Source: an uncultured Ruminococcus sp.
Lineage (GTDB): Bacteria; Bacillota; Clostridia; Oscillospirales; Acutalibacteraceae
NCBI GenBank assembly: GCA_902766885.1
Contig: CACXFS010000009.1
Coordinates: 1 to 61,183, forward strand
DNA length: 61,183 nt
Reading direction: 5' to 3'
Shown: positions 16,509 to 54,123 of the stretch, one piece after another
Layout: each line of letters begins with the position of its first letter
Position numbering within the stretch: position 1 is the stretch's first letter
Notes under the pieces: generated by a model
Seen by the model: only the letters and a program-made list of their open reading frames with translations
What the model was told of the DNA's origin: nothing
Database searches by the model: none
Translations under genes and position numbers: made by a program

Positions 16509-16556
16509 TTTCATTTGCAACTGCTGAATAAAACTGAATAAATAGGATTTAGCATT

Positions 16557-16613: not shown

Positions 16614-16645
16614 CTATTAAGCAAATAATTTTGGAGGAATTTAAA

Positions 16646-18083: not shown

Positions 18084-18092
18084 GAGGTAAAA

Positions 18093-18287: not shown

Positions 18288-18674
18288 ATGAATATACTTT
18301 CAGTTTGTGTGCTTGCCGTAGTTACCGTAATCATAATGGTAATGCTCAAGCCGAAAAACGGTGAAATTGCCTTAATGCTCGGACTTGCCTGCTCTGTGCT
18401 TGTTTTGTTTTCCGTGCTGTCGCAGGTTTCGGGCGTGATAGAAACAATCAACAGTATAATAGCTGCCTCGCAAATCAGTACAAGCTATGTAGTGATTCTG
18501 CTTAAGGTAATCGGAATTTGTCTTGTAACCGAGTTTGCAGTAAACACCTGCAAGGACGCAGGAAGTCAGTCGCTTGCAAACAATGTGTCGCTTGCAGGAA
18601 AAATTATGGTGACGATAACCTCACTGCCGCTTTATTCCGATATTTTAAACACCGTTTTGTCGCTTGTATCGTAA
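18288..18674 (+). CDS. spoIIIAD: Stage III sporulation protein AD
   Basis: A 128-aa polytopic membrane protein (about four helices). It contains MLKPKNGEIALMLGLACSVL and the FAVNTCKDAGSQSLANNV loop typical of SpoIIIAD. It starts at the base after the AC stop codon, so the two are translated together. Confidence 0.95.
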   Translation: MNILSVCVLAVVTVIIMVMLKPKNGEIALMLGLACSVLVLFSVLSQVSGVIETINSIIAASQISTSYVVILLKVIGICLVTEFAVNTCKDAGSQSLANNVSLAGKIMVTITSLPLYSDILNTVLSLVS

Positions 18675-18708
18675 ACTAATTTGACAACCTCGTTTATGGA
18701 GGAATGAC

Positions 18709-21398: not shown

Positions 21399-23696
21399 TT
21401 ATTTTAATGTTACGTTATAACCTGCAAGATATTTCTGGAGGAGAGTTACGTCAAGAATAGAAACTCTGCCATCACCGTTGAGGTCACATTTATCGTTTGA
21501 TTCTACCATTCCGAGGCCTGCTTTCTGAATATAAGTTACGTCCTCGATGTTAACTTCGGTATCGCCGTTTGCGTCACCTGCTTTATCATAAATTGAGGTG
21601 TAGCCGTCACGATAGAGAACAGCAAGCTCATCATACATTTTTGAGTAAAGTCTTGCCTGGAAGTTTGTAAGTCTGAAACCGCAGCCGCTTAAGTTCATTT
21701 TTGCAATTTCAAGTCCTTCGGGGCTTGTACCTCTTTCGTCAAATCCCTCAGAAGCCGAACCAGTGCCGTTGAGGTCAATTGCATAGCCCGTTTCGGGGTC
21801 AAATGAAGTTCTGCCGCTTGCATTGTGATACTTCGTGATAATTAAGCTTGTAGAGGCAAATACACCGCCTGACCATTTTCCTGTGGATTCGTCATAAGTA
21901 CCGTCAGGACCGAGCAGGTTACAAGTGATTGCAGCCATACCGTCACGGTCTGTATAAGAGCCGATTCTTGTTTCTCTGTACCAAGGGTTACCCGTTGTTG
22001 CAGTCGGATGAATCAGCATTGTGCAGCCCATTGCGGCGTAATATCTGCCAAGCTCGGGATAGAAGTGACCGTCACGGCAGATGTCAATGCCGATTTTGCC
22101 CCACTGTGTTTCAAACATATACGGTGTGTCGCCGCATACTGACCACTTTGATTCGTTGCCTGCACGGTGCATCTTCTGATAAGAATCAATTGTTCCGTCG
22201 GGGTAGAGAATAGCGGCTGAGTTGTAAACCTTTTCTGTGCCGCCGTCAGTCATATCATAGATAGGTTCGTCCTCTTTTTCGGTCATACCGAAGATGATAT
22301 ACATTCCGTACTGCTGAGCGTACTGTGAGAAGTAGTTTGTTGTAGGTCCGGGAATAGTTTCTGCAAGTGCTACCTGCATTGCGACTCCCGATTCCTGATA
22401 ATACGGGTCATTTTCGGGCTTTTTCCATTCATAGCCCGTCAGCACTGTTTCGGGGAATACAAGAATATCAACGCCTTTTTCGCCTGCTTCAATAATGTAT
22501 TTTTCCATAGCGTCAATGTTAGCCTGTTTGTCACCCCATACACCCGGCATATTTACAACAGCGGCAACAGGACCGTCGGTTACATTGTTGCTGTAGGAAA
22601 GCTTATCTCCTGAGTCCTGCATATCTGCAAGCTCATCATACCACTTTGCGTAATCCTCCGGACGGAAGTCCTGATTTGTGCAGGTTGAGCCTGTGCTTGC
22701 TTTAAGTGATTCCTTGTTTGTAAGCAATCCTTCTTCTCCGGTTATTATATCAGCTTCTGTATTTGAAAATACAGTTTCATCGGTAGTACCTGCATAGTAC
22801 TTTGTGCCTGACTGTAAGATTACCGAGCCGCCGGGGAAGTCGTAAGCCTGCTTGCCGTCTGACTTAACAGGTCCGTCAGCACCTACAAGGTTGGAACTTA
22901 AAAGTGTGTAGCCGTCACGGCTTGTATTGCTTTCAATTCTGTTTTTGTAGTACCATTCCCAGCCTGTGTCTTCTTTAACACCGTCACCGTCCGTATCGGT
23001 GTAGCTTCTTGAAGTAGCTGTTGGATTAAGAAGAATGTTACAGCCCTTTGCGGCATAGTATCTGCCGATTTCGGGCATTGCGTATGTGTCATAGCAAATA
23101 CTTACTCCAATCAGTCCGTAGTCGCCTGCGTCAATTAACACGGGATTTTCACCGGGAGTACACCACGAACCTTCAACAGGGCTGATTTTCTGGTATGTAG
23201 TAACTTCACCCTCGGGCGAGCAGATAAATGCTGAATTATAAGCGTGTTCGCTGTCACCTTCGATTGTTTCCGTTGCACCGTAGATAATCCACATATCATA
23301 GGTGTCTGCAACCTCTGCAAAGGTTGTTGCGGTAGGACCGTCGGAAGTTTCGGCAAGGTTAACTGCCGTCTGATATGCAAGTGACTCCGGGTCGCTTGAC
23401 GAAACATATCCTGTTACACACATTTCAGGGAAAAGAAGAATTTTTACTCCCTTTTCGTGAGCCTGTTCAACATAATTAAGCATGGAGCTTACATTTGCTT
23501 CTTTGTCGCCCCACGTTGACTTGAAGTTTACAACTCCGAGCTCGTCTTTTGCAAAGGTGTGTGAAACCTTTGGCTGACTAATTCTGTCCAATCTGGTGTA
23601 GTCGGTTGCAAAAGCTGTAACCGACGCTGTCATAATAATTGTAGATGCAACAGCAACGGATACAATTTTTTTTGACAGCTTTCTTGCTCTCTTCAT
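21399..23696 (-). CDS. Secreted tandem carbon-nitrogen hydrolase with C-terminal dockerin
   Basis: A 765-aa secreted protein. A signal peptide (residues 1-30, ending TASVTAFA) is followed by nitrilase-like domain 1 (~50-310), domain 2 (~375-660) and a type-I dockerin (~702-762, GDANGDTEVNIEDVTYIQ and CDLNGDGRVSILDVTLLQKY). Both domains keep the Glu-Lys-Cys triad: E91/K170/C201 and E416/K508/C540. Such enzymes cleave amide or nitrile C-N bonds; the substrate here is unknown. The dockerin implies attachment to a cohesin on the cell surface. The start has GAGGTGA upstream. It is a tandem paralogue of the next gene. Confidence 0.9.
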   Translation of the reverse strand: MKRARKLSKKIVSVAVASTIIMTASVTAFATDYTRLDRISQPKVSHTFAKDELGVVNFKSTWGDKEANVSSMLNYVEQAHEKGVKILLFPEMCVTGYVSSSDPESLAYQTAVNLAETSDGPTATTFAEVADTYDMWIIYGATETIEGDSEHAYNSAFICSPEGEVTTYQKISPVEGSWCTPGENPVLIDAGDYGLIGVSICYDTYAMPEIGRYYAAKGCNILLNPTATSRSYTDTDGDGVKEDTGWEWYYKNRIESNTSRDGYTLLSSNLVGADGPVKSDGKQAYDFPGGSVILQSGTKYYAGTTDETVFSNTEADIITGEEGLLTNKESLKASTGSTCTNQDFRPEDYAKWYDELADMQDSGDKLSYSNNVTDGPVAAVVNMPGVWGDKQANIDAMEKYIIEAGEKGVDILVFPETVLTGYEWKKPENDPYYQESGVAMQVALAETIPGPTTNYFSQYAQQYGMYIIFGMTEKEDEPIYDMTDGGTEKVYNSAAILYPDGTIDSYQKMHRAGNESKWSVCGDTPYMFETQWGKIGIDICRDGHFYPELGRYYAAMGCTMLIHPTATTGNPWYRETRIGSYTDRDGMAAITCNLLGPDGTYDESTGKWSGGVFASTSLIITKYHNASGRTSFDPETGYAIDLNGTGSASEGFDERGTSPEGLEIAKMNLSGCGFRLTNFQARLYSKMYDELAVLYRDGYTSIYDKAGDANGDTEVNIEDVTYIQKAGLGMVESNDKCDLNGDGRVSILDVTLLQKYLAGYNVTLK

Positions 23697-24084: not shown

Positions 24085-26478
24085 TTATACCAAAGCTACG
24101 TCATATCCTGCAAGGTATTTCTGCAACAGCGTTACGTCAAGAATTGAAACAACGCCGTCACCGTTCAGGTCGAATTTATCGGTTAAGGTTTCATTACCGA
24201 GAATTGCAAGCTGAATATAAGTTGCGTCAGATATGTTTACTTCAGTATCGTCGTTAGCGTCACCGGGTCTGTTGTAAATCGAGTTGTAGCCGCCACGATA
24301 GAGAACAGCAAGTTCATCATACATTTTTGAAAAAAGCCTTGCCTTGAAGTTTGTAAATTTAAATCCGCATCCGCTCAAATCCATCTTTGCAATTTCAAGT
24401 CCTTCGGGGCTTGTACCTCTTTCGTCAAAGCCCTCAGAAGCCGAGCCTGTGCCGTTGAGGTCAATTGCGTATCCCGTTTCGCGGTCAAATGAATTGACGC
24501 CGTTTTCATCATGATTTTTTGTTATGATTAGGCTTGTTGAAGCAAACACACCGCCTGACCATTTGCCTGTTGACTCGTTGTAAGTGCCGTCGGGACCGAG
24601 TGCGTTGCAGCTTATGGCAGCCAGACCGTCACGGTCGGTATAAGAGCCGATTCGTGTTTCTCTGTACCACGGATTACCCGTTGTTGCAGTCGGGTGAATC
24701 AGAATTGTGCAACCCATTGCTGCGTAGTATCGTGCAATTTCGGGGTAAAAATGACCGTCACGACATACATCAACGCCGATTTTGCCCCACTGTGTTTCAA
24801 ACATATACGGTGTGTCACCGCATATTGACCATTTTGATTCATAGCCTGCACGATGCATCTTATGATAAGATTCAATTTTTCCGTCGGGGTAAAGAATAGC
24901 GGCAGAGTTGTAGACCTTAATTTTAGAACTATCGGTTTTATCGTAAATAGGTTCGTCCACTTTTTCGCTCATACCGAAGATTATATACATTCCGTACTGC
25001 TGAGCGTATTTGGAAAAATAATTTGTAGTAGGTCCGGGAATTGTTTCTGCGAGTGCAATCTGCATTGCAACTCCTGATTGCTTATAGTACGGATCGTCAT
25101 TGGTGCTTTTCCATTCATAACCCGTAAGAATCGTTTCGGGAAACACAAGAATGTCAACGCCCTTTTCGCCTGCTTCAATAATGTATTCTTCCATTTTTTC
25201 AATGTTAGCCTGTTTGTCACCCCATACTGCGGTCATATTTACAACAGCGGCAACAGGGCCGTCGGTTACATTGCTGTTGTATGCAATATTACTATCCGAG
25301 CCTTGCCTGTCTGCAATTTCGTCATACCACTTTGCGTAGTTTTCCGGACAGAAATCTTCATTTGAGCAGGCTGTTCCTGAGCTTGCTTTGAGTGACGCTT
25401 TGTTGGTAAGCAACCCTTCTTCTCCCGTAATGATATCGGCATCTGTGTTTGTTGCAACACTTTTATCAGTTGTACCTGCATAGTATTTAGCGTCTGCCTG
25501 CAAAATTACCGAGCCTCCGGGAAAGTCGTAAGCCTGCTTGCCGTCTGACTTAACAGGACCGTCAGCACCAACAAGGTTTGCGCTTAAAAGCGTGTAACCG
25601 TCACGGCTTGTATTGCTCTCAATTCTGTTTTTGTAGTACCATTCCCAACCTGTGTCATTATTAATTCCGTCTTCGTCAGTGTCGGTGTAGTTTTTTGAGG
25701 AAGCGGACAGATTAAGAAGAATGTTGCATCCTTTTGCAGAATAATATCTTGATATTTCGGGCATATCGTATGTGTCGTTGCTTATGCTGACGCCGATATA
25801 TCCATAATTTTTTGCCTCAATCAGTACGGGTGTTTCACCCGATTTGCACCACGTCCCCTCAACAGGACTTATTTTCTGATAAGTAGTAACTTCACCCTCG
25901 GGCGAGCAGATAAACGCAGAATTATAAGCGTGTTCGCTGTCGCCTTCGATTGTTTCCGTTGCGCCGTAGACAATCCACATATCATATGCGTCTGCAACCT
26001 CTGCAAAGGTTGTTGCGGTAGGACCGTCGGAAGTTTCGGCAAGGCTAATTGCTGTACGGTATTCAACTGACTCGGGGTCGCTTGACGAAGCGTAACCCGT
26101 TACGCACATTTCGGGAAAGAGGAGAATTTTTACCTTCTGTTCGTGAGCTTCTTCAACGTAGTTTAGCATAGAGTTTACATTTGCTTCTTTGTTACCCCAC
26201 GTTGATTTAAAGTTAACTACTCCGAGCTCATTTTTTGCAAAATTATGTGAATAATCAGGCTGAAGAAGTCTGTCTGCTCTTGTATAATCAATTGCGAAAA
26301 CCGTAACCGATGTTGTGGAAATTATTATTATGCTGATAGCTATTGATATAGCTTTCTTTGACAGTTTTTTAAATATATCGGAAAATGCTCCTAAACGCTC
26401 GTGTAAAGTAGAGTTATCAAAATCATAATGCTTGTCCGATTTGCGTGTCGATGCACTCGACATTTTAAATTTCTTCAT
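24085..26478 (-). CDS. Secreted tandem carbon-nitrogen hydrolase with dockerin, domain 1 Cys lost
   Basis: A 797-aa paralogue of the neighbouring gene with the same order: two nitrilase-like domains and a dockerin (GDANDDTEVNISDATYIQ, DLNGDGVVSILDVTLLQKY). Domain 2 keeps its triad (the Cys in DVCRDGHFYPE). In domain 1 the catalytic Cys is replaced by Ser: the paralogue's SICYDTY reads SISNDTY here (S233), while E123 and K202 remain. Domain 1 is therefore probably inactive. The hydrophobic signal is preceded by about 42 polar residues, unusually long. I start at the ATG at 26478, 4 nt after AAGGTGAT; an ATG at 26538 lies within the leader hairpin. Confidence 0.9.
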   Translation of the reverse strand: MKKFKMSSASTRKSDKHYDFDNSTLHERLGAFSDIFKKLSKKAISIAISIIIISTTSVTVFAIDYTRADRLLQPDYSHNFAKNELGVVNFKSTWGNKEANVNSMLNYVEEAHEQKVKILLFPEMCVTGYASSSDPESVEYRTAISLAETSDGPTATTFAEVADAYDMWIVYGATETIEGDSEHAYNSAFICSPEGEVTTYQKISPVEGTWCKSGETPVLIEAKNYGYIGVSISNDTYDMPEISRYYSAKGCNILLNLSASSKNYTDTDEDGINNDTGWEWYYKNRIESNTSRDGYTLLSANLVGADGPVKSDGKQAYDFPGGSVILQADAKYYAGTTDKSVATNTDADIITGEEGLLTNKASLKASSGTACSNEDFCPENYAKWYDEIADRQGSDSNIAYNSNVTDGPVAAVVNMTAVWGDKQANIEKMEEYIIEAGEKGVDILVFPETILTGYEWKSTNDDPYYKQSGVAMQIALAETIPGPTTNYFSKYAQQYGMYIIFGMSEKVDEPIYDKTDSSKIKVYNSAAILYPDGKIESYHKMHRAGYESKWSICGDTPYMFETQWGKIGVDVCRDGHFYPEIARYYAAMGCTILIHPTATTGNPWYRETRIGSYTDRDGLAAISCNALGPDGTYNESTGKWSGGVFASTSLIITKNHDENGVNSFDRETGYAIDLNGTGSASEGFDERGTSPEGLEIAKMDLSGCGFKFTNFKARLFSKMYDELAVLYRGGYNSIYNRPGDANDDTEVNISDATYIQLAILGNETLTDKFDLNGDGVVSILDVTLLQKYLAGYDVALV

Positions 26479-26523
26479 AAAATCACCTTGTAAAATTTCA
26501 AAACTTCTCTGAATTAATTTCAT

Positions 26524-26555
26524 AAAAAAGAGGCACAAACCTGATGGTGTGTCTC
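26524..26555 (-). terminator. Leader hairpin with U6 run upstream of the second nitrilase gene
   Basis: Minus-strand GAGACACA (26555-26548) pairs with TGTGCCTC (26537-26530), one mismatch, followed by six T's. It resembles the 23741-23780 hairpin in sequence (GGTTTGTRCCTC) and in position before the gene. Confidence 0.5.
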
Positions 26556-33167: not shown

Positions 33168-33261
33168 ATAGATGAATAATAATACTGATTTACATAAACG
33201 GCAATTTTAAATGTGAACTTATTATGAATCAGTAAAACTATTGTATGAAAAGAGGTTAATT

Positions 33262-35355
33262 ATGGCTTTTAAATTAAATGATGAAAGACCTCCTCTCGAC
33301 CAGTTCTTACAGGGTGAATCAGCTCACGCCTATGAGTTTTTAGGCTCTCATTTTGTGAATTGGGACAACAGAGACGGCGTCGTTTTCAGAGTATGGGCAC
33401 CTAATGCCCTTTCTGTTTCCGTTGTGGGCGACTTCAACAACTGGGACAGCAACGCAAACTTTATGTATAAAATCTCGGATTCAGGCGTCTGGGAACTGTT
33501 CATTGAGGGAGTGCAGGAATTTTCCTGTTACAAGTACTGCGTTGAAACCCCTTGGGGCGAGCGCAGATTAAAGACCGACCCTTACGCATTCCATTGTGAA
33601 ACACGTCCCGATAACGCATCAAGAGTGTATGAAATTGACGGCTACGAGTGGCACGATGAGGAGTGGTTCAACTATAAAAAGGAGCATCCTCACAAAACAC
33701 AGCCAATTAATGTTTACGAGGTAAACGCAGGCTCTTGGCGCAAATATGAGGATGGTAACCTTTTCAGCTATCGCAAGCTTGCAGACGAGCTTATTCCTTA
33801 TGCAAAAAATATGGGTTATACTCACATTGAGTTTATGCCGCTTACCGAGTTTCCTTTTGACGGAAGCTGGGGTTATCAGGTAACAGGCTACTTTGCCGCA
33901 ACCTCACGTTATGGCGAGCCTAAGGACTTGATGTATTTCATTGACAAGTGTCATCAGGAGGGAATCGGTGTAATCCTCGACTGGGTACCTGCTCATTTTC
34001 CGAAGGACGCTCACGGTCTTGCCCGTTTTGACGGCACAGGCTGTTATGAATATGAGGACTACCGTATCGGTGAGCATAAGGAATGGGGAACATATATTTT
34101 CAATTACGGAAGATTTGAAGTTACAAGCTTCCTTATTTCTTCGGCTATGTTCTGGCTTGACATGTACCACGTTGACGGTATACGTGTTGACGCTGTTGCC
34201 TCAATGCTCTATCTTGACTATAACCGCAAGGACGGCGAGTGGATTGCAAACTGCTACGGCGGACGTGAAAACCTTGTTGCAGTTGATTTCCTGCAAAAGC
34301 TTAACACCGTAGTACATATGTACCACCCCGAGGCTATGATGATTGCAGAGGAAAGTACCGCTTGGCCTAACGTTACACGCTATCCGATTCAGGATATGGG
34401 ACTCGGCTTTGACTACAAGTGGAATATGGGTTGGATGAACGATATGCTTTCCTACATTTCGCTTGACCCGTTGTGGAGAAATTACCACCACGACACCCTT
34501 ACCTTCAGTATGGTTTACGCATTTTCAGAGAACTTTATGCTCCCGATTTCGCACGACGAAGTCGTTTACGGCAAGGGTTCTCTTATCAATAAAATGCCCG
34601 GTGATTACGACCAGAAGTTTGCAGGTGTGAGAGGATTCATAACATATATGATGGCTCATCCCGGCAAAAAGCTTATGTTTATGGGCAGTGAAATAGGTCA
34701 GTTTGACGAGTGGAACGCAGAAAAGCAGATTGAATGGGATTTGCTTGACTACGAAAAGCACCGTCAGCTGAATCACTTCTTTGCAGAGGCTAACAAGTTC
34801 TATCGTGATGTTCCGGCAATGCACGAAAACGACTATGACTGGAACGGTTTCCAGTGGATTGCGCTTGATGATTATCAGCACAGCGTAATAGCTTTCCGCA
34901 GAATTGCATATGACGGAAGTGAAATCATCTGCGTTTGCAACTTCCAGCCTGTTACCCGTGAAAAGTACAGAATAGGCGTTCCCGTTTACGGAATTTACGA
35001 GGAAGTTTTCAACTCGGAAAGCGAAGAATTTGGTGGTTGCGGAATCGTAAACAGCGGTGACATCAAATCTAAAAAGGTTAAAGACCACGAGCTTAATTAC
35101 TCAATTGAAATCACACTTCCGCCTCTCGGTGTAATGTACTACAAGCTTAAAAAAGAGCTCCCCGTACCTGTCAGAAAGAAGTCAACTTCGAAAATGACGG
35201 CTAAAAAGGAGGCTGCCGCAAAGAAGGTAAAGGAAGAAAAAGCTGCGGCTAAAAAATCAGACGATAAAAAGCCAACTGAAAAGAAAACCGAAGAAAAACC
35301 AAAGGTTGTGGTCGCAGAAAATACCGACAAACCCGCAGAAACTAAAGCAGAATAA
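33262..35355 (+). CDS. glgB: 1,4-alpha-glucan branching enzyme with Lys/Glu-rich tail
   Basis: A 697-aa GH13 enzyme that adds alpha-1,6 branches to glycogen. An N-terminal CBM48 (VVFRVWAPNALSVSVVGDFN) precedes the barrel. Catalytic regions are DGIRVDAVASMLY (nucleophile Asp), MMIAEESTAWP (acid/base Glu) and PISHDEVVYGKGSL. The start is ATG 33262 with AGAGG upstream. The last ~60 residues (from about 637) are a low-complexity Lys/Ala/Glu tail such as TAKKEAAAKKVKEEKAAAKK, which is not part of the enzyme fold. No other glg gene is in the window. Confidence 0.96.
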   Translation: MAFKLNDERPPLDQFLQGESAHAYEFLGSHFVNWDNRDGVVFRVWAPNALSVSVVGDFNNWDSNANFMYKISDSGVWELFIEGVQEFSCYKYCVETPWGERRLKTDPYAFHCETRPDNASRVYEIDGYEWHDEEWFNYKKEHPHKTQPINVYEVNAGSWRKYEDGNLFSYRKLADELIPYAKNMGYTHIEFMPLTEFPFDGSWGYQVTGYFAATSRYGEPKDLMYFIDKCHQEGIGVILDWVPAHFPKDAHGLARFDGTGCYEYEDYRIGEHKEWGTYIFNYGRFEVTSFLISSAMFWLDMYHVDGIRVDAVASMLYLDYNRKDGEWIANCYGGRENLVAVDFLQKLNTVVHMYHPEAMMIAEESTAWPNVTRYPIQDMGLGFDYKWNMGWMNDMLSYISLDPLWRNYHHDTLTFSMVYAFSENFMLPISHDEVVYGKGSLINKMPGDYDQKFAGVRGFITYMMAHPGKKLMFMGSEIGQFDEWNAEKQIEWDLLDYEKHRQLNHFFAEANKFYRDVPAMHENDYDWNGFQWIALDDYQHSVIAFRRIAYDGSEIICVCNFQPVTREKYRIGVPVYGIYEEVFNSESEEFGGCGIVNSGDIKSKKVKDHELNYSIEITLPPLGVMYYKLKKELPVPVRKKSTSKMTAKKEAAAKKVKEEKAAAKKSDDKKPTEKKTEEKPKVVVAENTDKPAETKAE

Positions 35356-35369: not shown

Positions 35370-35410
35370 AAGCTGTTTCAAAACTCTCTGTTTTGAAACA
35401 GCTTTTTTAT
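35370..35410 (+). terminator. Rho-independent terminator of glgB
   Basis: A perfect 15-bp stem (35370-35384 with 35390-35404), loop TCTCT, followed by TTTTT. Confidence 0.9.
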
Positions 35411-35448
35411 GCTTGCGGTCTATTTTTTAACACAATAAACGATAATTT

Positions 35449-35796
35449 GCCGAGTGCCTCGGCTCGCAAATCGAGTGGAAAAATCGGTTATTTTGGTAAA
35501 AACGGTTGCCCGAATTATAGATTGGTATGTAAGTAACGTTTTTTGTGAGCAACGAGGGCGTCGCTCGATACAATTTTGCACAAACATTTCCTTTTCAGTC
35601 GTAGGGACACGGCGTGCCGTGTTCGTAGTGATTATCAAACGCAACCGATTATATCAATATTTATGTGACAAACAAACCTTTCCGTAGGGGACGGGTTCCC
35701 ACACGTCCCTATGTATAAATTGTGAAACAATTTATACATTATGGCGAACACAGTTCGCTGCTGCAATTATAAAATTTGCCCGTCGAGGCACTCGAC
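35449..35796. repeat. Hairpin cluster bounded by inverted repeats, includes dispersed palindrome copy 2
   Basis: The ends 35449-35471 and 35774-35796 are inverted repeats, 19 of 23 matching, and each is itself a small hairpin (GCCGAG/CTCGGC and GTCGAG/CTCGAC). Between them lie at least four more hairpins: 35546-35574 (shared with 16480-16508), ACACGGC/GCCGTGT at 35607-35622, a GGGACG/CGTCCC pair near 35697-35709, and TGTATAAATTGT/ACAATTTATACA at 35712-35738. There is no convincing gene in this stretch. It looks like a composite non-coding repeat. Confidence 0.6.
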
Positions 35797-35823
35797 TAAA
35801 TTATTATTTTTTGCTTTTATAGG

Positions 35824-35851
35824 TTGACATATCCCGTAAAAGTAGTACAAT
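35824..35851 (+). promoter_or_regulatory. Sigma-A promoter of the TetR/lipid operon
   Basis: TTGACA (35824-35829), 16 bp, TACAAT (35846-35851). Confidence 0.7.
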
Positions 35852-35860
35852 ATATTATAG

Positions 35861-35879
35861 AATTAAACAGTGTTTAATT
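35861..35879. promoter_or_regulatory. Perfect palindrome, probable TetR operator
   Basis: AATTAAACA-G-TGTTTAATT is an exact 19-bp palindrome at the expected transcription start, 29 bp before the TetR gene. A second weaker dyad, TTAAACAATGTTAA, follows at 35881. This is the usual setting for autorepression. Confidence 0.65.
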
Positions 35880-35907
35880 TTTAAACAATGTTAAAAGGAG
35901 CTTTGAT

Positions 35908-36498
35908 ATGGGACGTGAACGGCAGATACAAAAAAACGAAGAAACCCGAAAAGCAATAATTGATGCCGCCGTTTCAATCGGACTTGAAGATGGCTTTGAG
36001 GAACTCTCAATCAGAAAGATTACCGACAAACTCGGCTACTCCGCAGGAATAGTTTACCACTATTTTAAGGATAAGCAGGAGATTCTCGACACGATACACA
36101 ATACCACAAGTATGGAGCTTATGGACACTGTTGATGCATGCATTCGTGAGGACAGAAACTTTGCAGAGAACACTAAGGTTGTGTTCAAAATGCTCTCCGA
36201 AATTTCAATATACGAGCCTGAAATGTTCAAACTGATTCTTCTTAACAGATATTCTCCAAAAAATGAGTCAATTCAGACGTGGCTTAAAATGATTCGTCAC
36301 TGTATTGAAATCGGTATAAACACCGGTGAGCTTAGAGATGTTGACTCTGAAATTGTGTCGTATATTATGCTGAATTCCTTTCTCGTTGCACAGATGATAA
36401 TAAATGAGAAAGATGACATTGACGAAAAGATGATTGAGCACGTTTTTGATACGGAGCTTGACATAATACTAAACGGGTTACTTAAAAAGGAGGAATAA
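35908..36498 (+). CDS. TetR-family transcriptional regulator
   Basis: A 196-aa one-component regulator. Residues ~12-58 form the TetR helix-turn-helix (LSIRKITDKLGYSAGIVYHY, FKDKQEIL), and the rest is the helical ligand/dimer domain. It starts with ATG after AAGGAG and ends one base before the hydrolase gene. A palindrome overlapping the likely start of transcription suggests it represses its own operon, with release by an acyl or lipid-like ligand (inference from operon content). Confidence 0.9.
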   Translation: MGRERQIQKNEETRKAIIDAAVSIGLEDGFEELSIRKITDKLGYSAGIVYHYFKDKQEILDTIHNTTSMELMDTVDACIREDRNFAENTKVVFKMLSEISIYEPEMFKLILLNRYSPKNESIQTWLKMIRHCIEIGINTGELRDVDSEIVSYIMLNSFLVAQMIINEKDDIDEKMIEHVFDTELDIILNGLLKKEE

Positions 36499-36499
36499 C

Positions 36500-37465
36500 A
36501 TGCAACTCTTTATGTGGATTTTGCTTGTAGTGCTGATTGTGATTGTCGGTCTGGCTTGCACAATTTATTTTTCGGCAAGATATTTTTTCAGGCTTACAAT
36601 ACTTCGCAAGCCTACTGCAACGCTTGAAAACAATATCAATGCAAACACAAACTGGGAACAGCACCTTGACTTTATCAATGAGCGCAAGGAGTGGCTCTTA
36701 CAGCAGAAAACGGAGGACGTTTTTGTAAAGTCCGACGACGGCTTAAAGCTTCATGCAACACTCTTAAGGAGCAATAGCAAGAAGAACTGCGTAATCTGCT
36801 TTCACGGCTACACCAGCAAGGGACTCAACGATTACGGCTCAATCTCGAAATTCTATATTGAGCAGGGCTTTAATATACTGATTGTTGACGAAAGAGCCCA
36901 CGGTGACAGTGAGGGAACGTATATCGGTTTTGGTGTTCTTGACAGATACGACGTTGTAAAGTGGATTGAATACGCAATAAAGCTGTTCGGAAATGATGTG
37001 AACATTATGCTCCACGGCGATTCAATGGGCGCAACAACTGTTCTTCTGGCAAGCGGACTCAACCTTCCGAAGAATGTAAAAGCTATAGTTGCCGACTGCG
37101 GTTTTACAAGCGCATATGATGTTTTTTCACACATTTTAAAGCGTGATTACCATATTCCGAAATTCCCGATTATGAACGTAACGGAAGTTATGACGAGAAA
37201 AAAAGCAGGTTACGGCTACAACGATGCAAGCACACTTGATGCTGTAGCCTCAACAGATATTCCGATTTTGTTTGTTCACGGCGACAAGGACGATTTTGTG
37301 CCCACTTGGATGAGCCAAAAAAATTACGAAGCTTGTAAATCGGAAAAGGAACTCCTTATCGTAAAGGGTGCAGACCACGCCGAATCTTACTATACCGATA
37401 CGCCTGCATTTGAAAATGCAGTAAAGAAGATGATTGAAAAATATTTTAAGGAGGACAAAAAATGA
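36500..37465 (+). CDS. Membrane-anchored alpha/beta hydrolase
   Basis: 321 aa: an N-terminal transmembrane helix (MWILLVVLIVIVGLACTIYF) and an alpha/beta-hydrolase domain from about residue 75. The oxyanion/HG region is CFHGYTSKG, the nucleophile elbow is GDSMGA, the acid lies in GDKDDFVP and the His in GADHAES, so the triad is intact. It probably acts as an esterase or thioesterase at the membrane. Its TGA overlaps the next ATG (ATGA), indicating translational coupling within the operon. Confidence 0.88.
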   Translation: MQLFMWILLVVLIVIVGLACTIYFSARYFFRLTILRKPTATLENNINANTNWEQHLDFINERKEWLLQQKTEDVFVKSDDGLKLHATLLRSNSKKNCVICFHGYTSKGLNDYGSISKFYIEQGFNILIVDERAHGDSEGTYIGFGVLDRYDVVKWIEYAIKLFGNDVNIMLHGDSMGATTVLLASGLNLPKNVKAIVADCGFTSAYDVFSHILKRDYHIPKFPIMNVTEVMTRKKAGYGYNDASTLDAVASTDIPILFVHGDKDDFVPTWMSQKNYEACKSEKELLIVKGADHAESYYTDTPAFENAVKKMIEKYFKEDKK

Positions 37466-38850
37466 GTGAAGTACATAAGCTATATCCTTTAGCAGCATCG
37501 CAGAAAATGCACTACTACACTGTTTCGTACTGCCCTAACAAGGCTGTGCTCAACATCGGCACAAGCCTGACAATTGAAAACGACATTGATTTTAATGTGC
37601 TCAAGGAGAGTATCTACGAGGCATATGACAGAAGTGAGTGTATGCGGATTCGTTTCTGTAAGAACGAAAACGGTGACGTTATGCAGTATGTTGTTCCCAA
37701 AGAGGAACGTGACATTGAGTTCTTTGAGTTCGGACACTGGAAATTTGAGGACGCAGAAAACGAGATGAAAAAATGGACTTCTGTTCCTTTTGAGCGTTTC
37801 GACAGCCCGATGAACAGAGTTGTTATGATTTCAATGCCCGACGGCTACAAGGGAATTTATCTGCTTGTTGACCATATGACAATGGACGCTCAGGCGGTTG
37901 TAATGTTCTTTAAGGACGTTATTCAGATATACTGCCACAAGGTTTACGATATTGATTATCCAAAGCCGCTTGCATCCTTTATCAAAGCTCTTGAAAAGGA
38001 CTTGAAGTACGAGGATAATTCAAAATCTCTGCAAAAGGACAGAGAGTACTGGACAGAATTTCTCAAAAACGGCGAACCTATGTATGCCGACATGACGGGC
38101 GACAATCTGCTTGAAAGACAGAGAGCGGAAAGCAACAATCCGAATTTAAGGGCGGCTGTATGCGGTATTCAGAGTTGTGACGCTGAAATTGCTCAGTTCC
38201 ACCTTGAGCCGAATCCTTCCGACTGGCTTGTTACCTTCTGCGAAAAGAATAATATATCAATGGTGACCTTATTGCTTATGGCGCTTAGAACATATCTTCA
38301 GAAGGTCAACAACAATCAGACTGATATTTCAGTTCAGAATACCGTTTCAAGGCGAGCAACTCTGCTTGAGAAAAATTCTGGAGGTACAAGAGTTCACTTC
38401 TTCCCGTGCAGAACGATTGTAAATCTTGATGAAACCTTCCTTGAAGGCTGTGAAAAAATCCGTGATGCTCAAAACGCCGTTTTCCGTCACGCAAATTTCA
38501 ATCCCATTGAGTTTATGGGCATGAGAAGTGAATTTTACCACCTCGACAGAGGTCAGTCGTATGAGCCGATAAGTCTTACCTATCAGCCCCTTTCAATGCG
38601 TTCAAACGATATTCTTCCCGATGTCCGCTATAAGTCAAACTTGTACACAAACGGCGTTGCGGCTCAGAATATCTATCTCACCGTAATGCACCGCTCACTC
38701 GACAACGGTCTTGACTTCTGTTTCGAATATAAGAAGGATAAGTACACATATAATGACCTTGAGAAGATGTATTACTTTATTACAAGAATCCTTTTTGAGG
38801 GTGTAAGAAATCCCTACAGCACAATTGCGGAAATTATTTCAAATACATAA
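37462..38850 (+). CDS. Stand-alone condensation-domain acyltransferase-like protein
   Basis: A 462-aa single condensation (C) domain of the NRPS/acyltransferase superfamily. The N-terminal YPLAASQKMHYY resembles the C1 motif. The catalytic HHxxxDG appears as DHMTMDA (LLVDHMTMDAQAV, about residue 137): the second His, the catalytic one, and the Asp are kept, while the first His and the Gly are changed. No A or PCP domain is fused. With ACP and ligase genes next to it, it likely joins an ACP-bound acyl group to an alcohol or amine; ester or amide cannot be decided. Confidence 0.75.
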   Translation: MSEVHKLYPLAASQKMHYYTVSYCPNKAVLNIGTSLTIENDIDFNVLKESIYEAYDRSECMRIRFCKNENGDVMQYVVPKEERDIEFFEFGHWKFEDAENEMKKWTSVPFERFDSPMNRVVMISMPDGYKGIYLLVDHMTMDAQAVVMFFKDVIQIYCHKVYDIDYPKPLASFIKALEKDLKYEDNSKSLQKDREYWTEFLKNGEPMYADMTGDNLLERQRAESNNPNLRAAVCGIQSCDAEIAQFHLEPNPSDWLVTFCEKNNISMVTLLLMALRTYLQKVNNNQTDISVQNTVSRRATLLEKNSGGTRVHFFPCRTIVNLDETFLEGCEKIRDAQNAVFRHANFNPIEFMGMRSEFYHLDRGQSYEPISLTYQPLSMRSNDILPDVRYKSNLYTNGVAAQNIYLTVMHRSLDNGLDFCFEYKKDKYTYNDLEKMYYFITRILFEGVRNPYSTIAEIISNT

Positions 38851-38864
38851 GGAGAGCAAGAACA

Positions 38865-39092
38865 ATGATTGACAAGATGAGAGAATTAATTACAAACTAC
38901 GTTGATGTTTCACCTGCCGAAATTTCGGAGGACTCAAAGTTTATTGACGACCTCGGATTTAATTCATATGATTTTATGAGTTTTCTGGGAGAAATCGAAG
39001 ATGAATTTGACATTGAAATCGACGAGCGTGAGGCTTTGAAAATCCACACAGTAGGAGAGGCAATAAAGTATATCGAATCAGCAGTGCAGTAA
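38865..39092 (+). CDS. Acyl carrier protein
   Basis: A 75-aa acidic four-helix carrier. DDLGFNSYDFMSFL holds the Ser that takes the 4'-phosphopantetheine arm. AAGGAGAG precedes the ATG. It lies between the condensation protein and the AMP-ligase, so it is probably dedicated to this pathway and not the housekeeping AcpP. Confidence 0.9.
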   Translation: MIDKMRELITNYVDVSPAEISEDSKFIDDLGFNSYDFMSFLGEIEDEFDIEIDEREALKIHTVGEAIKYIESAVQ

Positions 39093-39103
39093 GGAGCGGA
39101 AGT

Positions 39104-40657
39104 ATGGAAAATGTTAAGGTAAAGCCGAGCAAGAGATACGAAACTATCAAGGAAATGCTTAATGACACTGCAAAAATGTACGGCAGTCAGGACGCATTCC
39201 GCTATAAAAGCAAAAAGGAAATCGTTTCAAAAACATACACTGACATCAGAAACGACAGTATGACATTTTCGAATGTGCTGAAAAGCCTTGATTTGCTTTC
39301 AAAGCATATTGCCGTTATCGGAGCAACAAGCTACGAGTGGATTGTGACGTATTTCGGCACGGTAAACAGCAACAGCGTAATTGTTCCGATTGACAAGGAG
39401 CTTTCCGCTGAGGATATTTCAGAGCTTCTTGACAGGGCAGATGTTTCAGCGCTTGTTTATGACAAGGTGCTTTCGGACAGAATCAACACAATCCGTTCAA
39501 GTTGCAAAAATATACGTTACTTTATTGATATGAACGCTGAAAGCTCAACCGATGATACGCTTTCGTTTGCACAACTTATGAGCGAAAACGAGGGTGAATT
39601 TGACGTTGCAATCGACAGTGAAAAAATGTGCTCAATCCTCTTTACCTCTGGTACGACAGGCAGGAGCAAGGGCGTAATGCTTTCGCAGCAAAGCCTGATG
39701 GATAACGCAACTTGTATGGATATGGGCGAGCCTGTAGGTACGGTTTCGCTTTCAGTTCTGCCGATTCACCACGCATATTGCTTTACCTGCGATATCCTTG
39801 CGTGCCTTTGCGCAGGCGCAACAATCTGTTTTAACGACTCCATAATGCGTCTTGTCAAGAATCTCAACATTTTCAATCCTGATATTATTCTGCTTGTTCC
39901 AATGATAATGCAGACGATTTCTTATCAGCTGTCAGAATTGTCATCTCAGCACCCCGAAGTTCCCAAAGCAATGCTTGCCAAAAAGATTTTCGGAACTTCA
40001 CTGCACACAATCTACAGCGGCGGTGCATATCTTAACCCTGCTTTGATTGACGAGTTTGCACAATACGGAATTGACGTAATTCAGGGCTACGGAATGACCG
40101 AGTTTTCTCCGAGAATAGCAGCAAACGTAAGAGGATACATTAAAAAAGAGTCTGTCGGAGTTGTTATTCCCGGATGTGAAGCAAAAATAGAGGACGGCGA
40201 AATCCTTGTAAAGGGTAAAAGCCGTATGATTGGCTACTACAAGGATGACGCTGAAACCGCCAAGGCTTTATGCGGAGAGTGGCTCAGAACAGGCGACCTC
40301 GGATATATTGATGAGGATAATTTTCTTTTCATTACAGGCAGGAAGAAAAACCTAATAATCCTTGCAAACGGAGAGAACGTTTCTCCCGAGGAGCTTGAAA
40401 ACAAGTACAACGGATGGCTTGTTGCAAAGGAGCTTATGGTGTATTCCGAGGACGGAAAAATCATTGCCGAAATGTTCCCAAATGATGATTTTGTAAAGCT
40501 TAAAGGCATTACTAACATTGATGAAGTATTTGCTAAAAAGACAGAAGAAATCAATGCAGAGCTGCCGCTTTACAAGAGAATTGTAAAAACAATAGTCAGA
40601 AGTGATGAATTTGAAAAGACATCTTCGGGTAAAATAAAAAGAAAAAACAACAGCTGA
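39104..40657 (+). CDS. AMP-forming acyl ligase (ANL superfamily)
   Basis: A 517-aa adenylating enzyme. Core motifs are SILFTSGTTGRSKGVMLSQQ (A3), YGMTEFSPR (A5), WLRTGDLGYIDEDNFLFITG (A7/A8) and the C-terminal KTSSGKIKRK with the catalytic Lys (A10). It activates a carboxylic acid as acyl-AMP and could load the adjacent ACP or CoA. The substrate is unknown; size and context favour a fatty or aryl acid over an amino acid. It starts 11 bp after the ACP stop codon. Confidence 0.9.
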   Translation: MENVKVKPSKRYETIKEMLNDTAKMYGSQDAFRYKSKKEIVSKTYTDIRNDSMTFSNVLKSLDLLSKHIAVIGATSYEWIVTYFGTVNSNSVIVPIDKELSAEDISELLDRADVSALVYDKVLSDRINTIRSSCKNIRYFIDMNAESSTDDTLSFAQLMSENEGEFDVAIDSEKMCSILFTSGTTGRSKGVMLSQQSLMDNATCMDMGEPVGTVSLSVLPIHHAYCFTCDILACLCAGATICFNDSIMRLVKNLNIFNPDIILLVPMIMQTISYQLSELSSQHPEVPKAMLAKKIFGTSLHTIYSGGAYLNPALIDEFAQYGIDVIQGYGMTEFSPRIAANVRGYIKKESVGVVIPGCEAKIEDGEILVKGKSRMIGYYKDDAETAKALCGEWLRTGDLGYIDEDNFLFITGRKKNLIILANGENVSPEELENKYNGWLVAKELMVYSEDGKIIAEMFPNDDFVKLKGITNIDEVFAKKTEEINAELPLYKRIVKTIVRSDEFEKTSSGKIKRKNNS

Positions 40658-40686
40658 TTTATATTTAGATAATGGGGAGTACTTTT

Positions 40687-41010
40687 ATGACATTTTTTGA
40701 AATTTTTGACGAGGTAAAATCAACATTTATGCAGGCAGATGTAAGCGACTTCAGAGGTCACCTTGCACTGCAGGTAAATATGACAGGTGAGGGAGAGGGC
40801 AGATTCTACGCAGAGCTGAATGACGGTAAGTTAAGCGTTGAGCCGTATGAGTATTACGACAGAGATGTAATGTTCACTATTGACTCAAAGGACTTTTTAA
40901 AGCTCGTTCACGGCAAACTCGATCCTGTCTTTGCGTTCACCGTAGGTAAGCTTAAAGTTGACGGCGACCTCGGAAAAGCACTTGAAATACAGAAGTTAAT
41001 TAAAAAATAA
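40687..41010 (+). CDS. SCP2 sterol-binding-domain protein
   Basis: A 107-aa single SCP2-type domain with a hydrophobic ligand tunnel. ALQVNMTGEGEGRFYAELND, the DVMFTIDSKDFLKLVHGKLD block and AFTVGKLKVDGDLGKALEIQ are the family pattern. Start ATG 40687 after GGGGAG; an ATG at 40672 is upstream of that site. It could bind or carry the lipid product of the preceding enzymes. Last gene of the operon. Confidence 0.88.
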   Translation: MTFFEIFDEVKSTFMQADVSDFRGHLALQVNMTGEGEGRFYAELNDGKLSVEPYEYYDRDVMFTIDSKDFLKLVHGKLDPVFAFTVGKLKVDGDLGKALEIQKLIKK

Positions 41011-41021: not shown

Positions 41022-41180
41022 ATACTAAAACCTAATTAAATACTAAATATCTTTTTGGCATCTTTTCCGTCATATTTCGAGAGCTGTCCTAGAAATGCGT
41101 CAGCATTTCTGCGGAATCTCATTTGTCTGACGAAAAATCTGCTCAAAAATCTAATATAGTTTTTAATAAGGTATTAGTAT
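41022..41180. mobile_element. MITE-like element with 26-bp terminal inverted repeats
   Basis: The ends 41022-41047 and 41155-41180 are inverted repeats matching at 22 of 26 positions (ATACTAAnACCT...). The 159-bp element is non-coding. Its core contains the perfect hairpin AGAAATGC-GTCA-GCATTTCT (41091-41110) and a downstream CGAAAAATCTG shared with the 13794-13972 element, although the termini differ. It lies right after the SCP2 gene. Confidence 0.7.
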
Positions 41181-41217
41181 AAAACAAAAAGCAGGCAAAA
41201 CGCCTGCTTTTTGTTTT
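41181..41217. terminator. Bidirectional terminator (SCP2 operon / dockerin operon)
   Basis: A perfect 16-bp stem (41181-41196 with 41202-41217, core GCAGGC/GCCTGC) with A- and T-runs in the arms. It separates convergent operons. Confidence 0.85.
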
Positions 41218-41294
41218 TAAATGCAATATTATACTAAATACCGATAGGAAACTTAATATGTTCAATTTCTCACATAACATATAAATATTTATAA

Positions 41295-50991: not shown

Positions 50992-53900
50992 ATGATTACA
51001 CAATTTAAAAGCGCAAAAAGATTTACAAGCATTCTGATTTGCGTCACAATGCTTATGTCCTGCTGCACGCTGTTTGCAAACAGCGTTGCTGCGGAAGAAA
51101 CCGACGTTACACGAATTTCCGATTATTCAACAATGAATGAATGGAAAAATTACTTCGGGTATGATATAAAGTCTACCGAAAAAGAGGGAAGTGTGTGGAC
51201 AGATAAAACCGTTCTGACCGATTCGTCAGCATTAGGCAATTCGGGAATTTCTATGAACAGCAACGACGATTTTCTTGTAGCCTTGTCTGCAATTGCCTCC
51301 AATAAATCGGTAAAGGTCTATTCAAATATGCCGACCGATACAATGCTTATTCTCGACGTATCCGGCTCAATGAACGATGACGAAGGGCACAATGACCTTG
51401 CCGAGGAAATGGTTGACGCTGCAAACGATAGTATCGCAGATCTTCTTTCAAGCAACAAATACAGCCGAATAGGCGTTGTGCTCTATTCGGGAGCAAGCTC
51501 AGGAGCGTCAACTGACGATGCCGTACTTGTCCTGCCGCTTGACCGCTACACTACCTCGTCAGACGGCAAATACCTCAGCTATACGGTAACAACAAGCGGT
51601 GGAAGACATCCTTCTACCACGGAAACGGTGAGCATTGATTCTGATGTAAAGATTGAAAAAACAGGAGAAAAACCGAAGTCGGTAAGCAAAGAGGTTGTGG
51701 GTGCTACCTATATTCAGAAGGGAGTTATTCTCGCAATGAAGCAGTTTACTGCCGAAAGCAACACAACTACGGTTGATGACCCTGAGCTTGGCACATTACA
51801 GCGAAAGCCTGTTATGGTGCTGATGTCCGATGGCGCACCTACTCTGGGCAGTACCGATTTTACAAAGCCGAATCAGCACAATATCGGAACAGGCAGCAGT
51901 ACAAATACCGCTCTGGGCTTTGTCAGCCAGCTAAGCTCCGCGTATGCCAAACATCAGATTACGGAAAAGTACAACAGTGATTGTCTGTTCTACACACTCG
52001 GTCTTGGCGTTGGCAGTGACAGCGTAGCTGTAAGTGTTCTCAACCCCTCAAATTCATCTGATGAAATCAATAGCTTATGGAAAAATTACAACTCGGCTAA
52101 CACAGGAGAAAATATTACCGTTCCGAACAGCACAGAAGGAGATTCTCCGTATTCCGTAACTAAAATTTCACAAACGCTTGAGCAGAATTATGTTGACGGA
52201 TTTTTCAAAGTTGACGCTTCTTCTAAGGATAAAGCAGCGGATTTGAAAAAAGCATTTGCAGGAATTGTGGGTGCAATTAAGCTCCGGTCACATTACTTTC
52301 CGACTTATGTAACTGACTCAGAGAACACTTCGGGCTACGTCACTTTCACCGACCAAATCGGCGAGTATATGGAAGTAACCGATATGAAAGGACTCTTGCT
52401 CAATAACACCCTTTATTCGGGAGCAGAGCTTGCGAGAAATTTCAGTATAAGTGATGAATTAGCCTCTGCCGTTCAATCACAGCTCGGACTCAGCGATATC
52501 GGAACGGCAAAATCACTTATCAGCATTGCCTGCGAACACAATCAAATCAGCTACAGCAGTGAAACTGAATTTAGTAACTATATAGGCTGGTACGCAAATG
52601 CAAAAGGCGAATACCTCGGATTTTGGGATGATGGAATTGATACGTCATTAGATGATGAAACACAGCCGGCATATATCATAAAATCCTATCTTTATTGCGG
52701 CAAAGTCGGCGAAGAACAGGGCGTGTCTTCTTCTGATTTGAGATATGCAATTGTTCAGGTAAAGGAAAGTATTGCAAACGGTGAGCAGACAGTGAGCTTT
52801 GCCGTTCCGGCTGCACTTCTTCCCGTAGTTTCGTACAACGTAACTTTGGATAAAAACGATAATATTTCCGACCTTGTAATTTCGGGTGCAAAAGAGCCTG
52901 TACGTCTTGTGTACGGTGTCGGTCTGAAAGAGGAAATCAACGAACAGACTATAAGAGATATTGTTTCCGAAGATTACCTTGCCAAGAATACCAATGCTGA
53001 CGGCTCTATAAACTTCTACACGAATAAGTTCGAGGCTGACAACAGCACAGGCTTTGACAAGGTAAACACAATCTCCGACTTTATTCCGTCAAAGCAGAAC
53101 CCAAAGTTCTACTGCCTTGAAGACTCTCCCGTTTATTCAGACGATAAAGGCACATTGCTAAAGGGCAATATGGATTCTGACGCAGAATATTATTGTGCCT
53201 GCACTGTTTATGAAATCAAGGACGGCTCTGCACAGGCAAAAACCGCATACAAAGCATTGTCAAAACATGCGCTTAAATCTGCAAAGCAGAAGGACGACGG
53301 TACGTGGTATATCCCGTCGGGCAGTGCGAATGTAAATTCTGATAACGTTACAGAAAAAGCAGAGAACAGGACTGAAACACTGAAATACTCAAATGCACCT
53401 TTTGTAAATTATCAGTCAGATGAAGATTTTAGTATCTGCTCTGCGCTCGGAAACAACGGCAAGCTGACAATGCAAGATAAGTATGTTGAGCCGACAAAAC
53501 CTACAGAGCCGACAACCGAGCCGATTTGCACAACTGAGCCTACCGAGCCGACAACTGAGCCGATTTGCACAACTGAGCCTACCGAGCCGACAACTGAGCC
53601 GATTTGCACAACTGAGCCTACCGAGCCGACAACCGAGCCGATTTGCACGACCAAGCCTACCGAGCCGACAACTGAGCCGATTTGCACGACCGAGCCTACT
53701 GAGCCGACAACCGAGCCGATTTGCACGACCGAGCCTACTGAGCCGACAACCGAGCCGATTTGCACAACCGAGCCTACCGAGCCGACAACTGTGCCGATTT
53801 GCACAACTGAGCCGACAAAGCCGACTGAACCTACAACAGCAACTGTGCCAACTGTTACAACAGAGCCGGTTTTGCCAAGCAACCCGATAAAGCCGACAAA

Positions 53901-54123
53901 TCCAAGTGTTCCGAGTACACCTGACGAGCCAAATAAAAACGGTATTTCAAACAATTCGGGCACATCAAATAACTGCGGAAATACCGGAACTGTAAAAACC
54001 GTCGGAGCAATCCAGACAGGCGACGACAGAAATTATTATTACCTGCTCGCTTCTCTGATTGTAAGCGGACTTACTCTTTACGGTACGGTTAGTTATCGAA
54101 AAAGAAAAAGAACAGATAAATAA
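50992..54123 (+). CDS. von Willebrand A-domain surface protein with Cys-bearing Pro/Thr repeats
   Basis: 1043 aa. A signal peptide (~1-34) is followed by a vWA domain (~115-430) with an intact MIDAS, LILDVSGSMND (D122, S124, S126), and VLMSDGAPTLGS. Beta-rich Ig/pilin-like domains run to about 830. Residues 839-942 are eight 13-residue units of the form EPTTEPICTTEPT. The C-terminus has GAIQTGDD, a hydrophobic helix and RKRKRTDK, a sorting-signal-like layout with QTGD in place of LPxTG. Probably a cell-wall adhesin or pilus tip; no sortase gene is in the window. Confidence 0.85.
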   Translation: MITQFKSAKRFTSILICVTMLMSCCTLFANSVAAEETDVTRISDYSTMNEWKNYFGYDIKSTEKEGSVWTDKTVLTDSSALGNSGISMNSNDDFLVALSAIASNKSVKVYSNMPTDTMLILDVSGSMNDDEGHNDLAEEMVDAANDSIADLLSSNKYSRIGVVLYSGASSGASTDDAVLVLPLDRYTTSSDGKYLSYTVTTSGGRHPSTTETVSIDSDVKIEKTGEKPKSVSKEVVGATYIQKGVILAMKQFTAESNTTTVDDPELGTLQRKPVMVLMSDGAPTLGSTDFTKPNQHNIGTGSSTNTALGFVSQLSSAYAKHQITEKYNSDCLFYTLGLGVGSDSVAVSVLNPSNSSDEINSLWKNYNSANTGENITVPNSTEGDSPYSVTKISQTLEQNYVDGFFKVDASSKDKAADLKKAFAGIVGAIKLRSHYFPTYVTDSENTSGYVTFTDQIGEYMEVTDMKGLLLNNTLYSGAELARNFSISDELASAVQSQLGLSDIGTAKSLISIACEHNQISYSSETEFSNYIGWYANAKGEYLGFWDDGIDTSLDDETQPAYIIKSYLYCGKVGEEQGVSSSDLRYAIVQVKESIANGEQTVSFAVPAALLPVVSYNVTLDKNDNISDLVISGAKEPVRLVYGVGLKEEINEQTIRDIVSEDYLAKNTNADGSINFYTNKFEADNSTGFDKVNTISDFIPSKQNPKFYCLEDSPVYSDDKGTLLKGNMDSDAEYYCACTVYEIKDGSAQAKTAYKALSKHALKSAKQKDDGTWYIPSGSANVNSDNVTEKAENRTETLKYSNAPFVNYQSDEDFSICSALGNNGKLTMQDKYVEPTKPTEPTTEPICTTEPTEPTTEPICTTEPTEPTTEPICTTEPTEPTTEPICTTKPTEPTTEPICTTEPTEPTTEPICTTEPTEPTTEPICTTEPTEPTTVPICTTEPTKPTEPTTATVPTVTTEPVLPSNPIKPTNPSVPSTPDEPNKNGISNNSGTSNNCGNTGTVKTVGAIQTGDDRNYYYLLASLIVSGLTLYGTVSYRKRKRTDK
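53506..53817 (+). repeat. Coding tandem repeat, eight 39-bp units
   Basis: Eight in-frame 39-bp units encode EPTTEPICTTEPT with few substitutions (one Lys, one Val). Third-position differences are scattered, and adjacent units such as 5 to 7 are nearly identical, suggesting recent unequal exchange. Confidence 0.9.

Follow-up and report, generated by a model that had tools for sequence, protein, structure and literature searches.

A stretch of 61,183 nucleotides from contig CACXFS010000009.1 of an uncultured Ruminococcus sp. (assembly GCA_902766885.1) was analysed over its full length, which is referred to below as the window (contig C9 of a 2.02 Mb genome in 83 contigs). Six + strand genes at 35908-41010, bounded by two terminator-like hairpins, form a compact operon (Table 1). 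The number of genes, their tight spacing and the single overlap are as given in a preliminary description of this DNA, and the Pfam families agree with its assignments. In order, the spacings are 1 bp, a 4-bp overlap, 14, 11, and then 14 or 29 bp, the last value depending on the SCP2 start chosen (ATG 40672 or ATG 40687, respectively). The latter start, which yields the 29-bp gap described earlier, is probably the true one, as in relatives whose SCP2 begins with MT(F/Y). Taken as a whole, the locus is very likely an operon for fatty-acid-amide (FAA) synthesis of the OaaC kind, under TetR control.

Table 1. Features of the operon and its flanks, in window coordinates
Feature	Coordinates	Strand	Details
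Terminator-like hairpin, 3' of upstream gene	35370..35404	+	15-pair stem + T tract
Predicted sigma-70-type promoter, TTGACA-16-TACAAT	35824..35851	+	11/12 consensus positions
Putative TetR operator 1, perfect palindrome TTAAACA-G-TGTTTAA	35863..35877	+	
Putative TetR operator 2, tandem copy 18 bp downstream of operator 1, 1 mismatch	35881..35895	+	
TetR-family regulator	35908..36498	+	PF00440 TetR_N, E 4.5e-11
Membrane-anchored alpha/beta hydrolase	36500..37465	+	PF12146 Hydrolase_4, E 2.5e-13
Free-standing condensation (C) protein, FAA type, 462 aa	37462..38850	+	PF00668 Condensation, E 4.2e-34
Acyl carrier protein (ACP)	38865..39092	+	PF00550 PP-binding, E 2.3e-11
AMP-forming acyl ligase	39104..40657	+	PF00501 AMP-binding, E 1.4e-57
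SCP2-domain lipid carrier	40672..41010	+	PF02036 SCP2, E 3.9e-14
Hairpin + T run, likely operon terminator, could serve both strands	41181..41217	+	16-pair stem

Identity of the core trio

Among solved structures, the C protein has one strong relative: PDB 12KH aligns with residues 5-459 of 462 at 400 bits (E 8e-119), followed by PvdL with 25 bits. 12KH is OaaC of Coprococcus eutactus, an FAA synthase (PMC13142362), to which the window protein is 41% identical. According to the same paper, the FAA pathway consists of a ligase, an ACP, and a C protein, all free-standing, a trio that resembles a nonribosomal peptide synthetase (NRPS) and joins a fatty acid to a free amine; in vitro, OaaC forms amides from acyl-ACP and free aminovalerate or gamma-aminobutyrate (GABA), with oleate, palmitoleate, and laurate (PMC13142362). 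The preliminary description had recognised no known product class, and had let that claim stand or fall with a match to a characterised cluster. OaaC, the sole strong relative among solved structures, is such a match and refutes it; a novel product class was rejected on the 400-bit alignment.

The motif D137-H138-MTM-D142-A143 of the window protein fits the FAA form (D/H)HxxxD(S/A/G). The published motif is (D/H)HxxxDS, with Ser, Ala, and Gly in the last place in 42%, 36%, and 17% of 127 sequences, respectively (PMC13142362). In comparison with canonical HHxxxDG, DHMTMDA differs only in the first His and the last Gly, and the His and Asp of HxxxD are intact. Both residues (His138 and Asp142) are kept in 86/86 aligned rows, as is the phosphopantetheine Ser34 of the ACP (GFNSYDF; 86/86), and the catalytic Lys510 of the ligase is kept in 80 of 81 rows, the remaining one having a gap (residue counts here and below include only rows that passed score and length filters). 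The motif had earlier been called altered; the letters were read correctly, and the motif is typical of the FAA family. Loss of the ACP Ser or the ligase Lys in most orthologues, which had been named as counting against the proposed assembly line, is not observed. Its order of steps, with the ligase activating an acid, the ACP carrying it, and the C protein transferring it, fits the published FAA logic (PMC13142362). The roles of the trio and its catalytic residues are assigned by homology, according to which the core belongs to the known FAA kind, with a fatty acyl donor and an amine acceptor as the presumed substrates.

At E <=0.01, the C protein matches PF00668 Condensation and no other Pfam family, on which grounds a wax-ester synthase/DGAT or Pap acyltransferase was rejected. 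More broadly, the operon might serve fatty-acid uptake or storage, with the C-like protein acting as an O-acyltransferase that makes esters. Acyltransferases of the chloramphenicol acetyltransferase fold include wax-ester synthases and Pap proteins, and the ligase, SCP2, and hydrolase would all be compatible with lipid metabolism. With Condensation as the exclusive Pfam match and amide-forming OaaC as the strongest relative by far, however, such a function appears extremely improbable. A canonical NRPS module was also rejected, the C, adenylation, and carrier parts being on separate genes.

The gene set across related loci

A genome scan with four related C proteins returned 205 stretches, of which 189 are relatives, and the counts below refer to the best 80 of the 189, i.e., to the near clade. 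These loci were fetched by C similarity alone and then searched with profiles for the six proteins; L064, a duplicate of L051, is counted among the 80 and was left out of profiles and neighbour clustering. An ACP lies within 5 kb of the C gene in 80/80 loci and a hydrolase in 79 (the exception, L109, has 211 bp of upstream sequence), and the ligase is found downstream of C in 78 (L106 and L137 end <0.4 kb from C). The order hydrolase-C-ACP-ligase is seen in 77 of the 80, the other three being cut by contig ends, and the gene grouping of the preliminary description is thus beyond chance. In the 58 loci whose sequence extends at least 2 kb upstream and at least 4.2 kb downstream of C, hydrolase, ACP, and ligase never fail, while SCP2 is present in 36 and the window-type TetR in 8. 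This conservation also supports the earlier proposal that hydrolase and SCP2 belong with the pathway.

A gene of the phosphopantetheinyl transferase (PPTase) family separates ACP and ligase in 6 loci and adjoins the cassette in another 3 (confirmed by Pfam in L067, L086, and L089); two further PPTase genes near loci are distant and on the other strand. The window genome contains one PPTase of the same superfamily. In L033 (G051), at ~676-910, the ACP between C gene and ligase is not one open frame, which is either an assembly error or a broken gene.

As for the hydrolase, the triad Ser175-Asp264-His293 is kept in 81/81 rows. Its AlphaFold model (mean predicted local distance difference test score 93.1) has a hydrophobic N-terminal helix at residues 2-33 followed by an alpha/beta-hydrolase fold, and the best solved matches in a fold search are esterases of several kinds, a thioesterase, and others. 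Judged by a fixed cut-off, 52 of 86 hydrolases have the hydrophobic N-terminal stretch, and the other 34 score below the limit. Mean net charge around this stretch is +1.8 before and +3.1 after, from which we weakly infer that the catalytic domain is cytoplasmic.

The association of hydrolase and C gene was also assessed in 397 genomes sampled from a single family of this class; the family is very likely Lachnospiraceae, since it contains the Sellimonas genome of L107. The sample overlaps with the 80-locus set, as the L107 genome and G938 share contig coordinates. Matches to the hydrolase alignment at E <=1e-20 occur in 177 of these genomes, and the wider hydrolase family is common. However, each of the 38 matches with at least 410 bits directly precedes a same-strand C gene, at a distance of 36-136 bp between profile ends; the next one, with 381 bits, belongs to a genome without a C match. 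This hydrolase type thus appears dedicated to the cassette, and the window genome has no second hydrolase of the dedicated type at E <=0.001. The remaining 17 of 55 C genes in the sample, including 12 of the OaaC clade, are without such a hydrolase. Hydrolases do occur near OaaC-clade genes, upstream in L175, L177, L178, and L179 and downstream on the other strand in L183; they were rejected as members of the dedicated type, because their scores of 299-358 bits lie below the 410-bit gap, among hydrolases found elsewhere in genomes.

The SCP2 protein matches mammalian SCP2 chains (E 3e-9), and no second SCP2 match was found in the window genome. It is present in 48 of the 80 loci, at the 5' end in 29 and at the 3' end in 19, and has therefore moved yet been retained. 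No paper joining SCP2 or sterol carrier proteins with FAAs or C domains was found, a weak negative given that the search did not cover Chang et al. 2021 or Elmassry et al. 2025; PMC13142362 makes no mention of a sterol carrier protein.

Regarding other neighbours, ABC-ATPase-like and MATE-like transporters (names assigned by reading) occur in 14 and 12 clustered loci, respectively, and were rejected as cassette members owing to scattered distances and both strands. Three closely related Clostridium loci (L067-L069, ~10953-13117) have an Orn/Lys/Arg decarboxylase ~0.2 kb 3' of the ligase; this gene was rejected as a clue to the amine, not being 3' of the ligase in related L070 or L074. Anti-phage defence was rejected as well, with no PADLOC match at E <=0.001 for the five non-regulator proteins.

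Neighbouring genes also bear on whether the trio lipid-primes a nonribosomal peptide, with the C protein delivering its acyl group to an aminoacyl carrier that belongs to an NRPS from another locus. In L031 (G104, 10815-19001), the surroundings of a related trio include a SpoIIE-type phosphatase, a MatE transporter, and, at ~6 kb, an NRPS-type frame (AMP-binding E 1.9e-85, weak Condensation). FAA C domains sit nearest starter C domains (PMC13142362), and the window genome has a 2428-aa frame (G000:C51) with a weak C-domain match (E 1.9e-4). However, the operon contains one ACP, no NRPS was recognised on reading window open reading frames (ORFs) of at least 150 aa (Pfam being run on part of them) or among the 14 most recurrent neighbour families of the clustered loci, and the closest solved relative uses a free amine. 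Lipid priming is thus considered very unlikely.

Regulation, lineage, and distribution

The predicted promoter is the best of 24 sites in the scan (14.9 expected), and position 35824, where the preliminary description began, is the first base of its TTGACA box. Both putative operators lie 3' of the -10 box and are the only two matches to their pattern in the window (<=2 mismatches). In terms of number this is unremarkable, 1.0 being expected and 27 of 100 shuffles reaching two somewhere in 61 kb; the weight of the evidence lies in the tandem pairing 18 bp apart at a tetR promoter. All nine other orthologous tetR promoters have a site matching 11-13 of 14 operator positions, and shuffled tetR promoters reach at least 11 positions in 5% and at least 12 in 0.6%, where the pattern was taken from the window's own promoter after viewing the others and the shuffles preserve base content only.

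Terminator-like patterns are found at 8 sites in the region versus 4.7 expected. The upstream one follows a gene at 33241-35355, which we take to encode a glycogen branching enzyme-like protein. The downstream hairpin was missed by the pattern scan (in our reading, its fully extended stem breaks the tail rule), and the fold of 41165-41225 has -25 kcal/mol with z -7.4. The non-coding DNA before the operon holds an imperfect 26-nt inverted repeat (35446-35471 and 35774-35799, 302 nt apart), possibly a small repeat element.

The window-type TetR, orthologous and on the same strand, is found in 9 of the 80 loci (L064, the same locus as L051, among them) and heads the operon in each. More generally, taking the window together with all loci that have further ORFs around the cassette (77 in total), a regulator is found in 56: a different, divergent TetR in 41, a MerR in 6, and the window-type TetR in 9 (the window and eight loci); one TetR and one MerR were confirmed by Pfam. 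Regulation of the cassette thus recurs by differing regulators.

The position of the lineage was estimated by a quick maximum-likelihood tree of 78 C-protein rows, with SH-aLRT (approximate likelihood ratio test) values as the only support; 46 of the 80 loci entered, two NRPS outgroup rows are on very long branches, and seven too-short rows (six NRPS-type and L194) were dropped. The window clade (53 rows, SH-aLRT 92) joins the OaaC clade (17 rows, 99) with a support of 84; judged by this tree, the window lineage is a sister clade outside that of OaaC, with a larger gene set. The rows nearest to the window are L058 (95% identity), followed by L059, L060, L062, and L075, and all of them carry the six genes.

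Thirteen alignment columns distinguish the window clade from 13 trio-bearing OaaC-type rows. Beside the catalytic His, Met (Met139 in the window) is present in 50 of 53 window-clade rows versus Arg in 13/13 OaaC-type rows; L187-L189, near OaaC, also have Arg. Because OaaC was assayed with carboxylated amines and its Arg is Met here, the window clade probably uses an amine other than the 5-aminovalerate/GABA type.

According to the genome samples, the distribution of the C protein is patchy. Relatives with at least 240 bits are found in 3 genomes besides the window's own among 198 relatives, the order sample has 13 of 394 genomes at E 1e-25 (own included, three of these in frames >1100 aa), and in the phylum sample only the window's own genome among 398 has a match at E 1e-40. 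In the 397-genome family sample, an OaaC-type C protein is present in 54 genomes (55 genes). Record titles of relatives include Robinsoniella, Blautia, Sellimonas, Clostridium celatum, and C. saudiense, which are gut-associated bacteria. A lone C-type protein in L034 (11655-13013, G045) and L035 (8304-9662, G177) is 91% identical across genomes of two families, with no ACP or ligase found nearby; this identity suggests transfer of a solitary C gene. Similarly, no ACP or ligase was found within the fetched stretches of the OaaC-related C genes L054, L187, L188, and L189.

Elsewhere in the window, two neighbouring - strand genes (21399-23696 and 24085-26538) encode proteins with two carbon-nitrogen hydrolase stretches each and a C-terminal dockerin; their products would be dockerin-borne amidases, and we know of no other pairing of a dockerin with such amidases. 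At 50992-54123 there is a surface-like protein with a weak VWA match (below the Pfam cut-off) and a long PTEPTTEPICTTE repeat.

Proposed pathway and relation to known systems

In the proposed pathway, the ligase would convert a free fatty acid to an acyl-adenylate and charge the ACP with it at the phosphopantetheine arm, which would be supplied by a PPTase whose gene lies elsewhere in the genome. The C protein would transfer the acyl group to a small soluble amine, yielding an N-acyl amide with no need for a second carrier protein. The membrane hydrolase may free the fatty acid from lipid to feed the ligase, which is our first choice, or cleave the product, SCP2 may carry the fatty acid or the amide, and the TetR protein would sense an acyl ligand and block its own promoter.

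A more specific proposal, which we put forward tentatively and regard as rather doubtful, is that the lineage represents a distinct five-enzyme system that both makes and handles FAAs. Its committed hydrolase would feed the ligase from membrane or dietary lipid or cut an N-acyl-lipid intermediate, SCP2 would act as a shuttle, amines other than aminovalerate/GABA would be used, and the acyl-sensing TetR would provide feedback. If the clade makes FAAs, hydrolase and lipid carrier are pathway parts beyond those in PMC13142362, the former could explain the source of free fatty acid, and the residue beside the catalytic His, Met or Arg, offers a simple predictor of the amine.

Several points weigh against the proposed FAA pathway. 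Of the 58 loci with long flanks, 22 have no SCP2 close to the cassette, and the substrate of the hydrolase is not readable from its fold, the nearest solved structures being mixed esterases. The window clade includes the trio-only rows L031 and L050 (the latter with a hydrolase of another type after the ligase), both on long branches that the tree marks as uncertain. Met is also found beside the catalytic His of L054, which branches at the base of the OaaC clade. That this position marks the acceptor, with Arg binding its carboxylate, is our own suggestion, as the text of PMC13142362 names no acceptor-site residues. Finally, the literature covered gives no product, amine, or fatty acid for any window-clade member, and OaaC is active in vitro without hydrolase or SCP2, whose frequent presence may mean a changed reaction.

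An alternative reaction would have a membrane lipid head group (e.g., phosphatidylethanolamine) as the acceptor, with the C protein making an N-acyl lipid, the hydrolase cutting out the amide, and SCP2 moving lipid. A hydrolase as constant in the clade as the core enzymes, its hydrophobic N-terminal helix, the frequent SCP2, and Met in place of the OaaC Arg are all consistent with it. Considering that the solved relative takes soluble amines and that the fold search of the hydrolase is not lipase-specific, we nevertheless judge a lipid acceptor unlikely.

NRPS C domains act inside large enzymes on carrier-bound amino acids; those of PvdL and surfactin synthetase have the C fold in common with the window protein, with a similarity of at most 25 bits. 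In the vibriobactin system VibE-VibB-VibH, an AMP-ligase and a carrier likewise work with a free-standing C protein in the acylation of a soluble amine, with an aryl acid instead of a fatty acid, and no VibH is among the 16 solved sequences matched at E <=0.01. The closest system is OAA of Coprococcus eutactus (OaaA, OaaACP, and OaaC), which has the same three free-standing roles and an FAA-type motif. Free-standing C proteins of 300-520 aa, a range that includes the 462 aa of the window protein, characterise this kind of system, as does their homodimeric state. In comparison with it, the window represents a sister clade with Met for the Arg of OaaC and with hydrolase, SCP2, and TetR added to the operon, three words that do not appear in the main text of PMC13142362. 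In 12 OaaC relatives (L175-L186), which do not include the C. eutactus neighbourhood itself, no SCP2 was found, and some have a lower-score hydrolase.

FAA pathways are a recently described gut-bacterial kind whose products can mimic human signalling lipids. A review (PMC11979265), citing Chang et al. 2021, reports that Eubacterium rectale makes oleoylethanolamide with such a cluster. Human G-protein-coupled receptors are reported targets of FAAs from gut Clostridia (PMC13142362, also citing Chang et al. 2021). Judged by sequence, the core of the operon is best called a new member of the known FAA systems, and the hydrolase-SCP2 lineage, with some caution, a variant of them.

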